A stretch of DNA of 64,000 nucleotides from Jiangella gansuensis DSM 44835 (GCF_000515395.1 NZ_KI911782.1:2416606-2480605), one strand, 5' to 3'. Positions 56,005-64,000 are shown, counted from the first letter of the stretch. A program made the numbers and translations. The notes: generated by a model not told the origin, from the sequence alone.

Positions 56005-56024
56005 CGCAGCCAGCGGTTGATGAT
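55979..56024. terminator. Bidirectional hairpin overlapping both gene ends
   Basis: ATCATCAACCGC (55979-55990) pairs exactly with 56013-56024 around a 22-base loop. The MFS stop codon is in the loop and the response-regulator stop overlaps the right edge, so the stem is built from coding ends of both genes. Confidence 0.6.
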
Positions 56025-56707
56025 CATAGTGACGGCGGGATCAGTCCGTGCGCATGGGCGAACACCACGATCTGGACCCGGTCGCGCAGCTCCAGCTTGC
56101 GCAGGATCGCGCCGACGTGCGTCTTGACGGTGGACTCGCTGGCGAAGACGAGGCCGGCGATCTCGGTGTTCGACAGCCCGCGGGCGACGGCGGCGAAGAC
56201 CTCGCGCTCCTTGTCCGTCAGCGACAGATACGCCGGCGGGGGAGGCGTACGGGACCGGAACTGGCCGTCCAGGAGCGTCGACAGGTCCTGCGGGGCCAGC
56301 ACGGCGTTGCCGGCGTGGACGGTGCGGATGGCATCGCGCAGCATCAGCGGGGTGGTGTCCTTGAGCAGGAAGCCGCTGGCGCCGTGCCGGATCGCCGTCG
56401 CCGCCCGGTCGTCGAGGTTGAACGTGGTCAGCACCACCACCCGGACCGGGGCGGCGCGGCGGGCGGCGCGGTCGGGCAGGAAGATCTGCCGCGTCGCCTC
56501 CACACCGTCCATGTCGGGCATCCGGATGTCCATGAGGACGACGTCGGGCATCAGCTCGTCGACCATGCGGACGGCCTCGAGCCCATTGCCGGCCGACCCG
56601 ACCACCCGCATGCCGTCCTGGGCGTCGACGATGACCCGCACGCCCTCGCGGAAGAGCTCCTGGTCGTCGACCAGGAGCACCGTGATGTCGCCGTCGTCGC
56701 CGGTCAT
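56024..56707 (-). CDS. NarL-family response regulator of the van-like operon
   Basis: A 227-residue regulator. The receiver has VLLVDDQELFREGVRVI, DVVLMDIRMPDMDGVEA (phosphoacceptor Asp) and GFLLKDTTPLML (Lys). The C-terminal HTH is LTDKEREVFAAVARGLSNTEIAGLVFASESTVKTHVGAILRKLELRDR. The ATG overlaps the kinase stop, so it is the last gene of the dipeptidase-racemase-ligase-kinase-regulator operon. It is NarL-type, unlike the OmpR-type VanR. Confidence 0.9.
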   Translation of the reverse strand: MTGDDGDITVLLVDDQELFREGVRVIVDAQDGMRVVGSAGNGLEAVRMVDELMPDVVLMDIRMPDMDGVEATRQIFLPDRAARRAAPVRVVVLTTFNLDDRAATAIRHGASGFLLKDTTPLMLRDAIRTVHAGNAVLAPQDLSTLLDGQFRSRTPPPPAYLSLTDKEREVFAAVARGLSNTEIAGLVFASESTVKTHVGAILRKLELRDRVQIVVFAHAHGLIPPSL

Positions 56708-57996
56708 CGCCCTCCTGCCCGGACCGGCATCCACGCGGTGGCGGTGAACGTGGGGCCGACCGTCTCCTCGCGGCGGCGCACGTCCAGCCGACCGCCGACG
56801 GATTCCAGCCGGCGCCGCATCCCGTCCAGCCCCTGCCCTCCTCCGCCGCCGGCGGCGTCGCCGACGACGTTGCGCACCTCGATCCGCAGCTCGCCCTCCC
56901 AATGTCGTTCCACGGACACCGGGGCGTCCCGGCGGCCGTGCTTGATCGCGTTCGTCAGCATCTCCTGGAGCACCCGGTAGGCAACCTCCGCCAGCTCCGG
57001 CGGCAGCGGGCGAGGTGTCCCGACGTCCGACGCGACGACCTCGTGGCCGCTGGCCCGCAACCCCTCGACCAGGCTGTCGAGCCCGCCCGGCGGCGCCGCG
57101 GCCTGCTGGGTCTCCGAAAGCACCTGCCGCACATCCTGCAACGAGGTCCGCGCGGAGGTGGCGATCTTGGCCATGGTGGCCTTGAGCCCTTCGGTGTCGG
57201 CGTCGTCAAGATACTGCGCCGACTCCGCCTGGGCCAGGATCACCGCCAGCGAGTGCCCGACGACGTCGTGCACGTCGCGGGCCAGCCGCGCCTGGTCGTC
57301 GCGGAGCCGGGCGATCTCGCGGGCCTGCTCGGTCTCGAGGACCGCCCGCGCCGCGTCCTCCTCGGCGACCTGCTGCGACTCCCGCGAAGCCCGGGCCCGG
57401 GCGCCGAAGCGCAGCGCGAGGCCGGCCAGCCACGGTGCCCCGAGCATCGCCGTGCCCATGACCGCGGCCGTCAACTGCCAGGTGGTGCTGAGCTCCCGGA
57501 CGACGTCGACCAGGCTCTCGTTGCCGGCCAGCTGAGCCAGTCCACCGAGACCGAGCGTGTTCACCATGACGATGGCGATCAAGGCGGCGGCCGGGATCGA
57601 CAGGGCGCTGAGCGCGACGGTCGCGGTGCTGCCCCAGCGGGCCGCGCCGAACGCCACCGCGGTGATCGACAGCTGTACCAGCATCAGGTTCGTGCCGGTG
57701 GCCACTTGGACCGCGCAGGTGGCCCACACCAGCCCCAGCGCCACGCCAGGCTGCCGGCGGCTCAGCCCGACCGCCGTCGCGGTGAGCAACGCCACCAGTA
57801 CGAGCGGCAACCGGCTGCCGAACCAGAGCCAGGTGTTGGCCGCCTCGACCAGGCCGAGCACCGCGACGGCGACGCCGAGGGCCAGGTCCGGAACCCATCG
57901 GTCGGCGTCCCGCCTGGCGCGTTGGACGGCGGTGAGGGGGGCTATGGTCGGGCCTCCAGCCAGGTGTGTGAGCGCGTAACCCCGTAATGGAACCAC
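56704..57996 (-). CDS. NarL-type sensor histidine kinase of the van-like operon
   Basis: A 430-residue membrane kinase. Five or six N-terminal helices (WVPDLALGVAVAVLGLVEA, LPLVLVALLTATAVGL, VALGLVWATCAVQVATG and others) precede the HisKA_3 helix RDDQARLARDVHDVVGHSLAVILAQAESAQ. The HATPase has QEMLTNAIKHGRRDAPVSV and GQGLDGMRRRLESVGG. The GTG at 57996 lies two bases after the ligase stop, showing tight coupling to the cell-wall genes. The signal may be a wall-related stress, but this is inference from position. Confidence 0.85.
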   Translation of the reverse strand: MVPLRGYALTHLAGGPTIAPLTAVQRARRDADRWVPDLALGVAVAVLGLVEAANTWLWFGSRLPLVLVALLTATAVGLSRRQPGVALGLVWATCAVQVATGTNLMLVQLSITAVAFGAARWGSTATVALSALSIPAAALIAIVMVNTLGLGGLAQLAGNESLVDVVRELSTTWQLTAAVMGTAMLGAPWLAGLALRFGARARASRESQQVAEEDAARAVLETEQAREIARLRDDQARLARDVHDVVGHSLAVILAQAESAQYLDDADTEGLKATMAKIATSARTSLQDVRQVLSETQQAAAPPGGLDSLVEGLRASGHEVVASDVGTPRPLPPELAEVAYRVLQEMLTNAIKHGRRDAPVSVERHWEGELRIEVRNVVGDAAGGGGGQGLDGMRRRLESVGGRLDVRRREETVGPTFTATAWMPVRAGGR

Positions 57997-57998
57997 GC

Positions 57999-58940
57999 TC
58001 AGAACCGCGTGACGTCCCGGACGAGCAGGTCCAGCAGCCGGGGATAGGAGAGGCCCGCGGCGGCGAACATCTTCGGCACCTGCGACTGCTCGGTGAACCC
58101 GGGCATCGTGTTGACCTCGTTGAGCACGGGGCCTTCGGCGGTCAGGAAGAAGTCGACCCGGGCCACGCCGCCACAGCCGAGCGCGTCGAACATCGCGACC
58201 GCCGCGTCCTCCAGCGCCTTGCGTTCCGGGTCGGTGAGCGCCGCCGGGATGCGTAAGTCGGCGGCGCCGCCGTACTTGGTCGTGTAGTCGAACAGGCCGT
58301 CGACGACGATCTCCAGGCTCGGCGCCACCTCGCGCGACCCGTCCGGGCGCCCCAGGACGGCCAGGTCGATCTCCCGTCCGGTGACGACGTCCTCGACCAG
58401 AACCCGGTCGTCCAGGGCGAACGCAGCGTCCAGCGCCGGCGCGAGGTCGTCCGGCGACGTCACCAGCGCGACACCCTGGCTGGACCCGGCGGCAACGGGC
58501 TTCACCACGACCGGATGGGTCCACCGGTAGGCGGCGGCCGTGGCCGCGGTGAGCAGCACGCCCGGGGCGGTCGCGATGCCGATGTCGGCCGCGATCAGCT
58601 TGGTAGCCCACTTGTCCATGGCCAGGGCCCCGGCCCGCACCCCGGAGCCGACGTACCGGACCCCGGCCACGTCGCACAGCGCCGCAAGCGTGCCGTCCTC
58701 GCCGCGCGGCCCGTGCACCGCCGGGACGACGACGTCGCAGGTGCGCAGCTCGCGCACGGCGTCGGCCAGGTCGACCGGGCAGCCGGAGCCGATCCGCCAG
58801 CCGCCGTCGGTGTCGATGGTCAGCCGCACGACGGCGTACCCGGCGGTCGCGAGCGCATCGGCGACCGCGGCCGCTGACGCCAGCGACACCTCGTGCTCAC
58901 AGTTCTGGCCACCGCCGATCACCGCCACCCGCGCGCTCAT
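57999..58940 (-). CDS. D-alanine--D-alanine (or D-Ala-D-Ser) ligase, DdlB/VanG-like size
   Basis: A 313-residue ATP-grasp ligase. It opens VAVIGGGQNCEHEVSLASAAAV, then VVPAVHGPRGEDGTLAALCDVAGVRYVGSGV, the ATP loop HPVVVKPVAAGSSQGVALV, EIDLAVLGRPDG, the omega-loop LFDYTTKYGGAADLRIPAAL, and VARVDFFLTAEGPVLNEVNTMPGFT. DYTTKY points to the Ddl/VanC/VanG side rather than the VanA D-lactate ligase loop. It shares its start with the racemase stop (ATGA). It makes the D-Ala-D-Xaa dipeptide for peptidoglycan stems; which second residue it takes is open. Confidence 0.88.
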   Translation of the reverse strand: MSARVAVIGGGQNCEHEVSLASAAAVADALATAGYAVVRLTIDTDGGWRIGSGCPVDLADAVRELRTCDVVVPAVHGPRGEDGTLAALCDVAGVRYVGSGVRAGALAMDKWATKLIAADIGIATAPGVLLTAATAAAYRWTHPVVVKPVAAGSSQGVALVTSPDDLAPALDAAFALDDRVLVEDVVTGREIDLAVLGRPDGSREVAPSLEIVVDGLFDYTTKYGGAADLRIPAALTDPERKALEDAAVAMFDALGCGGVARVDFFLTAEGPVLNEVNTMPGFTEQSQVPKMFAAAGLSYPRLLDLLVRDVTRF

Positions 58941-60058
58941 CGCGACCTCCGCGTGACCCGGGTACCGATGCCGGTGACGATCTCGTGCTCGATCGTGCCT
59001 GCCCAGGCCGCCCAGTCCGCGGCGGTGGGTTCGCCGTCGTCGCCGGGCCCGAAGACGGTGACGGTCTCGCCGGGCGGCACCGGATCGGCGCCCAGGTCGA
59101 CCACCGCCTGGTCCATCGAGATCATTCCGACCAGCGGCCGCCGGCGCCCGCGCACCAGGACCTCGGCCCGGCCGGAAGCTGCCCGCGGCAGCCCGTCCGC
59201 GTAACCCAGGGGCAGCAGTGCCAGGTGCGTCGCCGCCGGAGCCGTCCACCCGTGGCCGTAACCCACCTGGGTGCCGGCCCGCACCCGCCGGACGGTGACG
59301 ACGGGAGCGGTCAGCGTCAGCGCCGGCCGCAGCCGGACCGTCCGCGAGGGGTCGATGCCGACCACCCCGGCCCCCACCCGGACCATCGAATGATGGGTTC
59401 GGCGGTCGGTGAGCGTGGCGGCGGTGGCGGCCAGGTGCCGCAGCGGCGGACGCAGCCCGGCTGCGCGGGCCGTCTCCACGCCCCAGGCGAACCGGGACCG
59501 GCCGGTCGCGTTGCACAGGTCGGCCGGGTGGTCCGCGCAGCCCAGGTGACCCATCACGCCGACTACGCGCAGCAACCCCCGCTGCTCGGCGAGCCGGGCC
59601 GCCCGGCACAGCGCGGCCCAGTCCGCCGGCGGCGCGCCGTCGCGGGCCATCCCGACGTCCAGGTGCAGGTGCACGCGCGCGCCCGCGCCGCCGGCCAGGA
59701 CGGCGTCGAGGTGCTCCCGGCTCGGCACGGTTACGTCCACCTTCGCGGCGACGGCGTCCCCGAACGGCGCGTCGACGGGGTTCAGCCAGCTCAGCACCGG
59801 CGCGGTGACGCCGGCCGCGCGCAGCGCCAGCGCCTCCCCGAGCCCGGTCACGCCCAGCCGGGTTGCACCGTGCGCGAGCGCCGTCCGGGCGACGTCCGCG
59901 GCCCCGTGCCCGAAGCCGTCGGCCTTCACCACGGCCATCAGTTCCGCGTCGGTGCGGGCGGCTATCGTGCTGACGTTCGCGGCGACCGCGGCCAGGTCGG
60001 CGGTAAGCAGCGGCGCGGCCACGGTGCACGGTGCCGGCGCCACGGCGAGGGCGCTCAC
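58937..60058 (-). CDS. Alanine racemase-fold PLP enzyme of the van-like operon
   Basis: A 373-residue enzyme. The PLP lysine is K45 in ELMAVVKADGFGHGAADVA; the second catalytic residue is the Tyr of GTQVGYGHGWTAP; GMISMDQAVVDLG closes the active site. It interconverts L- and D-alanine, or L- and D-serine if it acts as VanT. It is soluble, without the membrane domain of VanT. The GTG overlaps the dipeptidase stop and its end overlaps the ligase start, so it lies between hydrolase and ligase in one operon. Confidence 0.88.
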   Translation of the reverse strand: MSALAVAPAPCTVAAPLLTADLAAVAANVSTIAARTDAELMAVVKADGFGHGAADVARTALAHGATRLGVTGLGEALALRAAGVTAPVLSWLNPVDAPFGDAVAAKVDVTVPSREHLDAVLAGGAGARVHLHLDVGMARDGAPPADWAALCRAARLAEQRGLLRVVGVMGHLGCADHPADLCNATGRSRFAWGVETARAAGLRPPLRHLAATAATLTDRRTHHSMVRVGAGVVGIDPSRTVRLRPALTLTAPVVTVRRVRAGTQVGYGHGWTAPAATHLALLPLGYADGLPRAASGRAEVLVRGRRRPLVGMISMDQAVVDLGADPVPPGETVTVFGPGDDGEPTAADWAAWAGTIEHEIVTGIGTRVTRRSR

Positions 60059-60684
60059 GCCGTCACCAGCCGCGCGCTGACCGGGCCGTACAGGGCCGCC
60101 GCGGCGCCGGTGCGCAGCGCCCAGTAGCGGTCGCCGTAGCTCCAGTGCCACCACTCGGTGGGATAGTTCACCAGGCCGGCCCCGCCCAGGACCCGAGCCA
60201 GGAGCTCCCGGTTCGCCCGGGCCGGGCCGGTCACCTGCGGCGCGTCGAAGAAGCAGGCGCCGCCGCTATCCTCGGGCGTCGCGTCGATCGGGGTGCCGAG
60301 GTCGAGCTCCCTGTCGTCGGCGGTGGACACCAGGGTCAGGTCGACGGCGGCGCCGGCCACGTGCGGTGCCACCGCGACCGGCGCGACGAACCGGCTGGTC
60401 AACCGCTCGAGCTCGGCATCGGTGAGACCCGGGTGAAGGGCGGACAGCTGTGCGGCGTACCCGGCGATGATGGCGCGCTGGTCGGCGAGCGAACGGTGGC
60501 CCTCCACCACCCGCAGGCCGATTCCGCCGGGCAACCGGTCGCGGGCCAGGAGGAGACGCTGCGCCAGCGAGGCTCGCACCGCGGCATGCGCCGGCCCGAA
60601 CGAGTCGTCGAGCTCCACCATCGGTTCGCCGTCGTCGTGGACCGGGACGGCATGGACCCGCGGGTCGGAGAGGAGGATCGTCAT
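60055..60684 (-). CDS. VanX-type D-alanyl-D-alanine dipeptidase (M15D)
   Basis: A 209-residue zinc peptidase without signal peptide. Zinc ligands H108 and D115 are in APHVAGAAVDLTL and H180 in PTEWWHWSYGDRYWAL, with E177 as the catalytic base; LPGGIGLRVVEGHRSLADQR is the conserved start of the fold. Cytoplasmic VanX destroys D-Ala-D-Ala. The ATG at 60684 is chosen; a GTG three codons upstream at 60693 is an alternative. It is first in the operon, and TAGCGT just before the start may be the -10 of a nearly leaderless message. Confidence 0.88.
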   Translation of the reverse strand: MTILLSDPRVHAVPVHDDGEPMVELDDSFGPAHAAVRASLAQRLLLARDRLPGGIGLRVVEGHRSLADQRAIIAGYAAQLSALHPGLTDAELERLTSRFVAPVAVAPHVAGAAVDLTLVSTADDRELDLGTPIDATPEDSGGACFFDAPQVTGPARANRELLARVLGGAGLVNYPTEWWHWSYGDRYWALRTGAAAALYGPVSARLVTA

Positions 60685-60802
60685 ACCCGGCACGCTAGGA
60701 ACCGGGGCCCGTCACCGGCCTCCACCTGAGGTGCCGAACTGCTGGCCGCGAGGACGAGAAGGCTGGCCGCGGGCCCGGCCACGCCTGGGGCGATCCCGTG
60801 CG

Positions 60803-61741: not shown

Positions 61742-63439
61742 ATGGGGAGCGGTGCCGACCAGATCTTGCCGAAGCTCCCGCTCGAGGAGCTTCTCGGTGA
61801 GGTGCAGTCGCGGCTGCAGGCGGTGGTGGCCGCCCAGGACGGCGTGCACGCACTGCTCGAGGCGGTCGTGTCGATCGGCCGCGACCTCGAGCTGGAGACG
61901 GTGCTGCGGCGCATCGTGGAGGCGGCCATCCGGCTGGTGGACTGCCGGTTCGGCGCCCTCGGGGTGATCGGCGACGACGGACAGCTGGCCCAGTTCATCC
62001 CGATCGGGGTCACGGAGGACGAGATCGCCCGGATCGCGGAGTGGCCGCACGGGCGGGGCCTGCTCGGGCTGCTGATCAAGGAGCCGGCGGCGCTGCGACT
62101 GGAGGAGATCGCCGACCACCCGGAGTCGTACGGGTTCCCGGAGGGACACCCGCCGATGCGTACGTTCCTCGGCGTGCCGATCCGGGTGCGGGACGAGGTG
62201 TTCGGCAACCTCTACCTGACCGAGAAGAACGCCGGCCGGCAGTTCGACGAGCAGGACGAGACCATCGTGGCGGCGCTGGCCACGGCCGCGGGCATCGCGA
62301 TCGACAACGCCCGCCAGTACGACGCCACCCGGCGCCGGGAGACCTGGCTGGACGCGTCCGCCGAGGTCACGCAGGCGCTGCTGTCCGGTACGGAGTTCCG
62401 GGACACGCTGCAGCTCATCGCCACGCACGCGCGGGCCATGACGTCGTCGGACACCGCGGCGGTGGCTGTGCCCGACCGCGACGGCCGCACGATGCGGGTG
62501 GAGGTGGCCGACGGTGCCGGCGCGGACGATCTGGCCGGCGTGGAGTTCGCGGCCGAAGGCACGCTGGGGGCCGCGGTGGTGGCATCCGGCGAGCCGAGGG
62601 CGGTCAACGAGATCCGCCGCGGCCCGGAGCCGGCGCCGCTGCTGGACCGGCTGCCCGACGGTCCGGCGCTGTTGGTCCCGCTCGGGACGCCGCCCCATGT
62701 GCGGGGTGTCCTGGTGCTGGTGAAACGCCGCGGCGGGACGCCGTTCTTCGGACCGACCGCTCGCATGGTGCACGCGTTCGCCAACCAGGCCGCCGTCGGC
62801 CTGGAGCTGGCCGAAGCGCGCCGTGAGGCCGAGCGACACGGCCTGGTGGACGACCGCGAACGCATCGCCCGCGACCTGCACGACGTCGTGGTGCAGCGGC
62901 TGTTCGCCAGCGCGATGAGCCTGACGGCCGCTGCCCGGCTGATCGATCGGGCAGACGTGGCCGCGCGGGTGGAGCGCACGGTCGACGACCTCGACGCGAC
63001 CATCCGGCAGATCCGCTCGACCATCTTCGCGCTGCAGTCGTCGAAGGACGACGTCGCGCCGACTCTGCGCGGCCGCCTGGTGAACGTCGTGGAGTCCGCG
63101 CGGGAGCAGCTGGGGTTCGCTCCCGGCTTGCAGTTGGTGGGTGAGCTGGACAACGCCGTCCCTGACCAGGTGGGCGAGCAGGCGGTGACCGTGCTGCAGG
63201 AGGCGCTGTCCAACGCGGTCCGGCACGCGCGGGCCTCGCGCGTCGACGTCGTCGTGGAGGCCATGAACGGGCGGTTGCGGCTGATGGTGGCCGACGACGG
63301 CGTCGGACTCCCGGCCGACCGGCGGCACAGCGGCCTGGCCAACCTCGCCGAGCGGGCCGCCGCGCTGGGCGGGACGTTCGAGCTCGCAACGGGCGAACCG
63401 ACCGGGACCGTGCTGACCTGGCGAGTACCGCTGCGGTGA
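61742..63439 (+). CDS. DevS/DosS-like sensor histidine kinase with tandem GAF domains
   Basis: A 565-residue cytoplasmic kinase. GAF-A spans about residues 45-195 and includes FPEGHPPMRTFLGVPIRVRDEVFGNLYLTEKNAGRQFDEQDE; H136 occupies the position of the haem ligand His149 of DosS. GAF-B follows (about 205-355). The HisKA_3 helix is VDDRERIARDLHDVVVQRLFASAMSL, and the ATPase has LQEALSNAVRHARASRVDV, MVADDGVGLP and GLANLAERAAALGGTFEL. AGAGGGGG precedes the ATG. With the adjacent DevR-like gene it is expected to sense oxygen, NO, CO or redox state. Confidence 0.92.
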   Translation: MGSGADQILPKLPLEELLGEVQSRLQAVVAAQDGVHALLEAVVSIGRDLELETVLRRIVEAAIRLVDCRFGALGVIGDDGQLAQFIPIGVTEDEIARIAEWPHGRGLLGLLIKEPAALRLEEIADHPESYGFPEGHPPMRTFLGVPIRVRDEVFGNLYLTEKNAGRQFDEQDETIVAALATAAGIAIDNARQYDATRRRETWLDASAEVTQALLSGTEFRDTLQLIATHARAMTSSDTAAVAVPDRDGRTMRVEVADGAGADDLAGVEFAAEGTLGAAVVASGEPRAVNEIRRGPEPAPLLDRLPDGPALLVPLGTPPHVRGVLVLVKRRGGTPFFGPTARMVHAFANQAAVGLELAEARREAERHGLVDDRERIARDLHDVVVQRLFASAMSLTAAARLIDRADVAARVERTVDDLDATIRQIRSTIFALQSSKDDVAPTLRGRLVNVVESAREQLGFAPGLQLVGELDNAVPDQVGEQAVTVLQEALSNAVRHARASRVDVVVEAMNGRLRLMVADDGVGLPADRRHSGLANLAERAAALGGTFELATGEPTGTVLTWRVPLR

Positions 63440-63443
63440 GCCG

Positions 63444-64000
63444 TCAGGCACCGCGGCGAGGCTTCGCCTCCGACTTGAGCTGGGCGGCCAGCACGGCGGC
63501 CTGGGTGCGGCGGTTCAGGTCCAGCTTGGCGAGCAGGCTGGAGACGTAGTTCTTGATGGTCTTCTCGGCGAGGAACATCCGCTCGCCGATCTGCCGGTTC
63601 GTGAGCCCCTCGCCGATGAGGTCGAGGATGCGCCGCTCCTGGTCGGTGAGGGTGGCCAGCGGGTCGGCCTTCGTGGCGCGGTCGCGCAGCCGCGCCAGCA
63701 TCCGGGCGGTGCTCTGCGGGTCCAGCAGCGATGTTCCGGCAGCCAGTGCTCGCACGGCCCCGACCAGGTCGGTGCCATGGATCTGCTTGAGCACGTAGCC
63801 CGCGGCGCCGGCCATGACGGCATCGAACAGGGCGTCGTCGTCGGCGAACGACGTCAGCATCAGGCACTGCAGCTGCGGCAGCCGCGAGCGCATCTCCCGG
63901 CAGACGGTGACACCGTCGCCGTCGGGCAGCCGCACGTCCAGGACGGCGACGTCCGGGCGCAGCGCGGGGATGCGGGCCATCGCCTGCTCGGCGGTGCCGG
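63444..64000 (-). CDS. DevR/DosR-like NarL-family response regulator (5' end outside window)
   Basis: About 185 C-terminal residues of a response regulator; the frame is open to the window end so the start is outside. [22 protein letters not shown] carries the phosphoacceptor Asp; [42 protein letters not shown] the Thr and Lys switch residues. The HTH is [63 protein letters not shown], very close to mycobacterial DosR in wording. It converges with the DevS-like kinase gene, 4 bases between stops. Confidence 0.92.

Follow-up and report, generated by a model that had tools for sequence, protein, structure and literature searches.

Does the group of five genes at positions 56024-60684 of a 64,000-nucleotide stretch of Jiangella gansuensis DSM 44835 (NZ_KI911782.1, 2416606-2480605; hereafter the window) encode a Van-like system that alters the terminus of the peptidoglycan precursor, and which residue would such a system place there? 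The preliminary description of the locus, made from the sequence, proposed a unit of a VanX-type dipeptidase, a racemase, a Ddl-like ligase and a two-component system, perhaps making D-Ala-D-Ser. The precursor tip altered by systems of this kind is the spot to which vancomycin binds.

Organization of the Locus

The proposed gene set, order and coordinates were borne out, all five genes lying on the minus strand (Table 1) of a genome that consists of a single contig of 5.59 Mb. The genes are closely packed: vanX and the racemase gene overlap in GTGA, and both the racemase and ligase genes and the kinase and regulator genes in ATGA (4 nt each), a 2-nt gap between ligase and kinase being the sole non-overlapping junction of the set. 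As a functional unit, the operon extends further than the genes first delimited, since it also takes in the upstream operator (60719-60756). No VanH is found among the operon genes and the racemase lacks a membrane domain, both as claimed; relatives carry a separate acyltransferase-3 (AT3) gene, which has been lost here. The assignment of the regulators to the NarL/HisKA_3 type was also confirmed by domain search. Another NarL-type pair occupies positions 61847-63980 of the window, where a GAF-domain HisKA_3 kinase (plus strand) faces a NarL-type regulator (minus strand); this neighbouring pair is not kept beside the operon in other Jiangella. Defence-system models gave no relevant match.

Table 1. 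Features of the operon and its upstream region, in window coordinates.
Feature	Coordinates	Strand	Evidence or remark
vanX-like M15 dipeptidase, 209 aa	60055..60684	-	Peptidase_M15, VanX fold, active-site residues
Alanine-racemase-family enzyme, 373 aa, without membrane domain	58937..60058	-	Ala_racemase_N/C, TIGR00492
Ddl-family ATP-grasp ligase, 313 aa, F217/Y223/Q287 signature	57999..58940	-	Dala_Dala_lig_N/C
HisKA_3 sensor kinase	56704..57996	-	HisKA_3 + HATPase_c; GTG at 57996 taken as start, true start uncertain
NarL/LuxR-type response regulator, 227 aa	56024..56707	-	Response_reg + GerE
AT3 relic VVPLRGYALTHLAGGPTIAPLTAV, 24 codons, now read as kinase N-terminus	57925..57996	-	Match to AT3 of relatives
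GTGGTTCCATT, conserved DNA element preceding the kinase gene, perhaps for internal control	57986..57996	-	
Putative operator CGGCACCTCAGGTGGAGG, about 35-52 bp before vanX start	60719..60736	-	Sequence conservation
Weaker second operator copy CGTCCTCGCGG, 21 bp upstream of the first	60746..60756	-	Commonest spacing in relatives is 21 bp
TAGCGT, -10-like box	60692..60697	-	TTCCTAGCGT kept upstream of vanX in many relatives

Distribution and Conservation

The VanX-like gene is present in 11 of 12 Jiangella genomes, at 76-100% identity, and absent from all ten other genomes of the family examined. Each of the ten Jiangella congeners fetched, among them Jiangella rhizosphaerae, endophytica, muralis and aurantiaca, contains the five genes in identical order, with no other gene of the window conserved alongside. 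Because the five genes are kept while their flanks differ between congeners, the unit behaves as a module. In an even sample of the class, the same VanX branch was detected in 57 of 394 genomes and 16 of 137 genera, the 11 Jiangella genomes being counted in.

The spread across actinobacteria was followed by a scan of genome contigs from which the best 80 loci were taken; these come from Nocardioides, Actinopolymorpha, Paractinoplanes, Lentzea, Kineosporia, Frankia and others. All five genes occur in 54 of the best 80 loci, as vanX-alr-ddl-kinase-regulator in 30 and with an AT3 gene between ligase and kinase in 24. Of the other loci in this set, 13 have vanX-alr-ddl-AT3 without the kinase/regulator pair, six consist of the three enzyme genes alone (two of these lie on contigs that stop right after ddl), one has a divergent racemase, and six combine a VanX-like gene with a distant racemase and ligase or with none. 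The same gene order, for which the preliminary description had advised a search, thus exists both in ten sister genomes with unshared flanks and in many actinobacterial families, and this recurrence argues against a chance arrangement. The closest VanX relative (85%) belongs to Microlunatus speluncae, and the patchy spread of the operon, this relative included, suggests that it may have moved horizontally. Purifying selection is indicated by dN values well below dS for four of the genes, the kinase value being left out.

The Three Enzymes

The dipeptidase is recognized by the Peptidase_M15 Pfam model (E 2.4e-12) and is the only M15 peptidase of this genome. At the sequence level it resembles VanX weakly (24 bits against 1r44), and it scored 35.6 bits with the NCBIfam VanX equivalog model, the cut-off of which is 320. 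Its predicted fold (pLDDT 91.7), on the other hand, has VanX 1r44 as best solved match (E 1.5e-10), and H108, D115, H180, E177 and R64 align with H116, D123, H184, E181 and R71 of VanX, the first three being Zn ligands of VanX and E181 its catalytic Glu. These metal and catalytic residues and the Arg are invariant in 30 relatives. The modelled fold, the Zn ligands and the catalytic Glu together place the protein, by fold, in the VanX type (M15D).

With TIGR00492 the racemase scored 251.5 bits (cut-off 168). The PLP lysine K45 is invariant and the catalytic Y267 is kept. At active-site positions of recognized role in Alr, it departs from the M. tuberculosis enzyme and from the housekeeping Alr of its own genome, encoded elsewhere beside nnrD, by Y to F49, K to H/Q132, N to A211, S to T212 and C to S314, changes that are mostly conserved within the core family. 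The enzyme stayed below the VanT-G cut-off (195 bits against 460) and the fused AT3 domain is absent. By these residues the racemase is best described as a retuned paralogue of Alr, for which serine would be a natural guess as substrate. The position equivalent to Tyr354 of GsAlr was considered as a marker of serine specificity and set aside as uninformative, since it varies in ordinary actinobacterial Alr too.

The ligase has a predicted fold (pLDDT 92.4) that matches Ddl, VanA and VanG structures with Z values of 37-40, and it passed the Ddl superfamily models PRK01966.1-4 (288.3 bits, cut-off 262) and TIGR01205 (277, cut-off 246). It fell short of the cut-offs of the NCBIfam D-Ala-D-Ser ligase model (219.9 bits against 520), the VanG ligase model (227 against 495) and the VanA ligase model (170.7 against 775). 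F217, Y223 and Q287 are found in 74 of 74 core ligases, and K222 is also kept. At these three positions the canonical Ddl of Mycobacterium and Jiangella has Y-Y-M, the parB-linked Ddl of this genome Y-Y-L, VanG F-Y-R and VanA F-V-R; Q287 was seen in no reference ligase compared. The equivalent of Phe217 is a feature of D-Ser and D-Lac ligases, and that of Tyr223 is kept in dipeptide ligases. In VanG, F252 and R324 (aligned positions computed here) are presumably the residues that determine D-Ser specificity; the Phe and Arg pair of D-Ser ligases is missing here, as all core members have Gln at the Arg position. The retention of Lys222-Tyr223 makes a dipeptide a likelier product than a depsipeptide, and Phe217, Tyr223 and the altered racemase make D-Ala-D-Ser plausible. 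Position 155, in the ATP-grasp loop, is variable (H/Q/F/L/R).

In the ligase tree the VanA/VanG clade (support 100) excludes the operon ligases and the divergent F-Y-Q ligases alike. As a whole, the first reading of the locus is partly supported: the Van-like regulated unit holds and D-Ala-D-Ser is plausible, with the refinement that the ligase stands outside the Van ligases. The F-Y-Q ligases of Promicromonospora, Kribbella and a Streptomyces plasmid branch apart from the core. In Promicromonospora (L082, L088, L099) and Kribbella (L122, L125), related VanX, racemase and ligase genes are otherwise arranged, either with a divergent ligase and racemase or as racemase-ligase-VanX, the F-Y-Q signature being present throughout. 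On the Streptomyces plasmid (NZ_CP045548; L158, 4654-6855), a single gene fuses an alanine-racemase-family domain to the F-Y-Q Ddl-family ligase.

A genome without any other ddl had been named beforehand as a point against a Van-like role; a further ligase, the parB-linked ddl-family gene, is present. The canonical ddl of the gpsA-ddl-thiL arrangement, which turned up in each of the 21 further genomes of the order, was not found in this one, which might have made the operon ligase the housekeeping Ddl. This was rejected because gpsA, thiL and recG, expected with it as one block in Jiangella, are likewise not found at a stated completeness of 99.93%; a gap or an omitted stretch in the copy of the genome analysed is probably behind the missing block.

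Putative Operator, Regulators, and a Lost AT3 Gene

Upstream of vanX, an operator core of the form GGYACCTSAGG is located mostly 49-51 bases before the start codon; a second, weaker copy precedes it by 21 bp, and in many loci a -10-like box (TTCCTAGCGT) comes after it, near the ATG. With at most one mismatch allowed, 57 of 61 kinase-linked loci have the operator as compared with 2 of the 26 remaining loci, and these two (L094, L124) are contigs that stop just after ddl; shuffled upstream regions match about 1.6% of the time, and these loci are kin, so that they do not count as independent trials. This co-occurrence with the kinase/regulator pair supports the original proposal that a Van-like unit is tied to a NarL-type system. 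Whole genomes provide the stronger test: the 18-base operator occurs once in this genome at two mismatches or fewer and, at one mismatch or fewer, as one copy, before vanX, in each of 11 operon-bearing Jiangella genomes and in none of 11 Jiangellales genomes without the operon. The simplest reading is that the operator would be the single target of the regulator, which is 70-93% identical in nearly all kinase-linked loci. A site immediately upstream of the -10-like box would be well placed for activation by a bound regulator, and the transcript probably starts at or near the vanX ATG if the box acts as promoter. A sigma-70 promoter scan found nothing, as is expected for high-GC actinobacteria.

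Loci without a linked pair (Lentzea, Actinokineospora and kin) have a different sequence upstream of vanX. In eight of them (L095, L097, L104-L108, L110; Lentzea and kin), another motif is repeated there, CGGCCGATC / CCGAACGGCCGATG / GAACCGGCCGTTCGG, hinting at another, unlinked regulator.

The N-terminal half of the kinase is hydrophobic and contains no obvious sensor domain. Its extreme N-terminus was rejected as a real domain, since the first 24 residues are a relic of AT3. In relatives, a PF01757 acyltransferase-3 gene with an R-x10-H motif near its N-terminus lies 3' of the ligase gene; it has gone from the window and from most Jiangella, and the first 24 codons of the kinase frame, VVPLRGYALTHLAGGPTIAPLTAV, match the middle of AT3, as in the comparison with the AT3 of L047: SVVPLRGHALTYLAGGPTIAALTAV. 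An AT3 domain likewise forms the membrane half of VanT, and what it does there has been posed as an open question (PMC9558356, PMC12423673). Descent of the separate protein from that half was considered and rejected, since it is recognized by PF01757 and by none of the VanT models.

An 11-bp element, GTGGTTCCATT, is located inside AT3 where this gene is present (e.g., L047, L055, L086) and directly 3' of ddl in several loci from which AT3 has been deleted. Inside AT3 it is kept at the DNA level only where the kinase/regulator pair follows. In most kinase-linked AT3 genes it brings in rare codons, namely GTT (2.3% of Val codons), CCA (6.2% of Pro) and TTG/TTA (3.3% of Leu), whereas AT3 genes without the pair usually have no rare codons at this position. 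Because the rare codons accompany the linked pair, a DNA-level function of the element seems indicated, perhaps that of an internal promoter for kinase and regulator.

Relation to Known Systems

According to a 2021 survey of actinobacterial van genes, vanHAXRSY is the arrangement met most often in Jiangellales (PMC8698665). The operon shares with vanHAX the presence together of a ligase and a VanX-type dipeptidase; it differs in having no VanH among its genes and in its ligase, with K222/Y223 where VanA has E and V. Closer in content are the VanC/E/G/L/N operons, which also combine racemase, ligase, dipeptidase and two-component system: F217 and Y223 are common to VanG and the operon ligase, and AT3 and racemase co-occur in both, fused in VanT and as separate genes in the operon relatives. 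However, the VanT fusion is missing here, the ligase has Gln for Arg and stands apart from VanA/VanG, a VanX-like protein takes the place of VanXY, and the GerE and HisKA_3 domains mark NarL/HisKA_3 regulators instead of the OmpR-type VanR/VanS.

The nearest relative of the operon is the published 'pdx' operon of Micromonosporales, composed of PALP enzyme-Ddl-VanX-VanRS genes, for which its authors proposed a D-Ala-D-Ser-like role (PMC8698665). Both have a Ddl-like and a VanX-like protein with a PLP enzyme replacing VanH, and the VanX-like protein of a 'pdx'-type triad (L117) is 61% identical to that of the operon. They differ in that 'pdx' has a PALP-family enzyme of the serine/threonine-dehydratase type beside Ddl and VanX, an F-Y-M ligase and, as reported, VanRS-like regulators, while the operon has an Alr-type racemase, an F-Y-Q ligase and a NarL-type pair. 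The same source mentions rare alanine/aspartate racemase-Ddl genes in a few Streptosporangiales, proposed as an alternative remodelling route; these are similar in enzyme content and are linked to vanRSY, not arranged as a vanX-racemase-ligase-NarL unit (PMC8698665). No description of the latter unit was found in the passages of the survey consulted or in the further open literature searched, and by its sequence the operon appears to be a previously undescribed variant among Van-type systems.

Proposed Function and Its Alternatives

What was observed is the gene content and its conservation, the catalytic residues, the changes at specificity positions and the co-occurrence of the operator. On this basis, with the racemase-ligase fusion of the Streptomyces plasmid and the purifying selection as further points in favour, the locus is, in our judgement with fair probability, a dedicated and regulated operon making D-Ala-D-Xaa (most likely D-Ser) and thereby changing the peptidoglycan precursor end. 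A wall signal would reach the sensor kinase, which probably senses within the membrane and would phosphorylate the NarL-type regulator; this would bind the paired operator upstream of the -10-like box and switch on vanX-racemase-ligase. The racemase would supply the D-amino acid, the ligase would join it to D-Ala as a dipeptide, and the VanX-like enzyme would clear D-Ala-D-Ala made by other Ddl enzymes, MurF then adding D-Ala-D-Xaa to the precursor; glycopeptides or other lipid II binders may be what such precursors resist. Three points favour D-Ser: the presence of Phe217, the resemblance of AT3 plus racemase to VanT, and the serine/threonine-dehydratase-family enzyme that replaces the racemase in L117, of the sister 'pdx' type. 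It is important to note that four findings count against this reading: known D-Ser ligases have Arg where this one has Q287, which may mean a different specificity; the ligase is far below the D-Ala-D-Ser cut-off and outside the Van clade; the racemase is better matched by the alanine racemase model (251 bits) than by that of VanT (195); and the AT3 sequences of relatives are not specific to VanT.

The first of these findings leads to an alternative that is rather unlikely, in which precursors are remodelled as described and the second residue is another D-amino acid, for example a small or polar one, which would be new chemistry. An invariant Q287 in the core that no reference ligase compared possesses, the variation at position 155 of the ATP-grasp loop and a racemase pocket departing from Alr at several positions would all fit; Phe217 and Tyr223, however, match VanG, and the dehydratase-family enzyme of the neighbouring 'pdx' type points to serine. 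With the same modest chance, this would amount to a widespread actinobacterial system whose precursors end in none of D-Ala, D-Ser and D-Lac but in some other D-amino acid, through a Gln-type ligase, a retuned racemase, an optional separate AT3 and a single-target two-component switch.

The remaining readings dispense with an altered precursor. Spare, drug-insensitive copies of racemase and ligase could back up D-Ala-D-Ala supply or give tolerance to D-cycloserine, both known targets of which are duplicated here, and resistance from extra Ddl genes is on record (PMC7691350). Yet a VanX-type dipeptidase on the same transcript would destroy the product, and F217 and Q287 are unlike all D-Ala-D-Ala ligases compared, which leaves this reading improbable. 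VanX homologues such as DdpX of E. coli act in turnover, and the M15 protein scores no worse with PRK10178, a model of that type (49 bits), than with VanX (36 bits); a role in turnover or salvage of D-Ala dipeptides, as a nutrient or during growth arrest, with ligase and racemase recycling D-amino acids, is nevertheless very improbable, given that the operon is not accompanied by any conserved peptide transporter or catabolic gene and that catabolism needs no ligase. Slightly less credit still is given to a dipeptide made by ligase and racemase for a specialised metabolite, with the dipeptidase protecting the producer: racemase-ligase pairs do occur in some biosynthetic settings, but here flanking genes are unshared between species and only AT3 was seen to travel with the operon.

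Implications

If a regulated operon for D-Ala-D-Xaa precursors is what the locus encodes, many environmental actinobacteria can alter lipid II by an unrecorded route that has its own regulation and differs from the vanHAX and OmpR-type VanRS systems sought by resistance surveys. The F-Y-Q signature would be a compact and testable claim on ligase specificity, and the separate AT3, present or lost among relatives, offers natural variants with which to probe the AT3 half of VanT (PMC9558356, PMC12423673). Within the genus, one Jiangella congener (L148) carries a classical vanH-vanA-vanX set, and seven further congeners have VanX-like matches of the vanHAX kind. Two wall-remodelling systems thus seem to coexist in Jiangella, and the apparent presence of vanHAX together with this operon in some of its genomes suggests that each may answer to a different cue or antibiotic.
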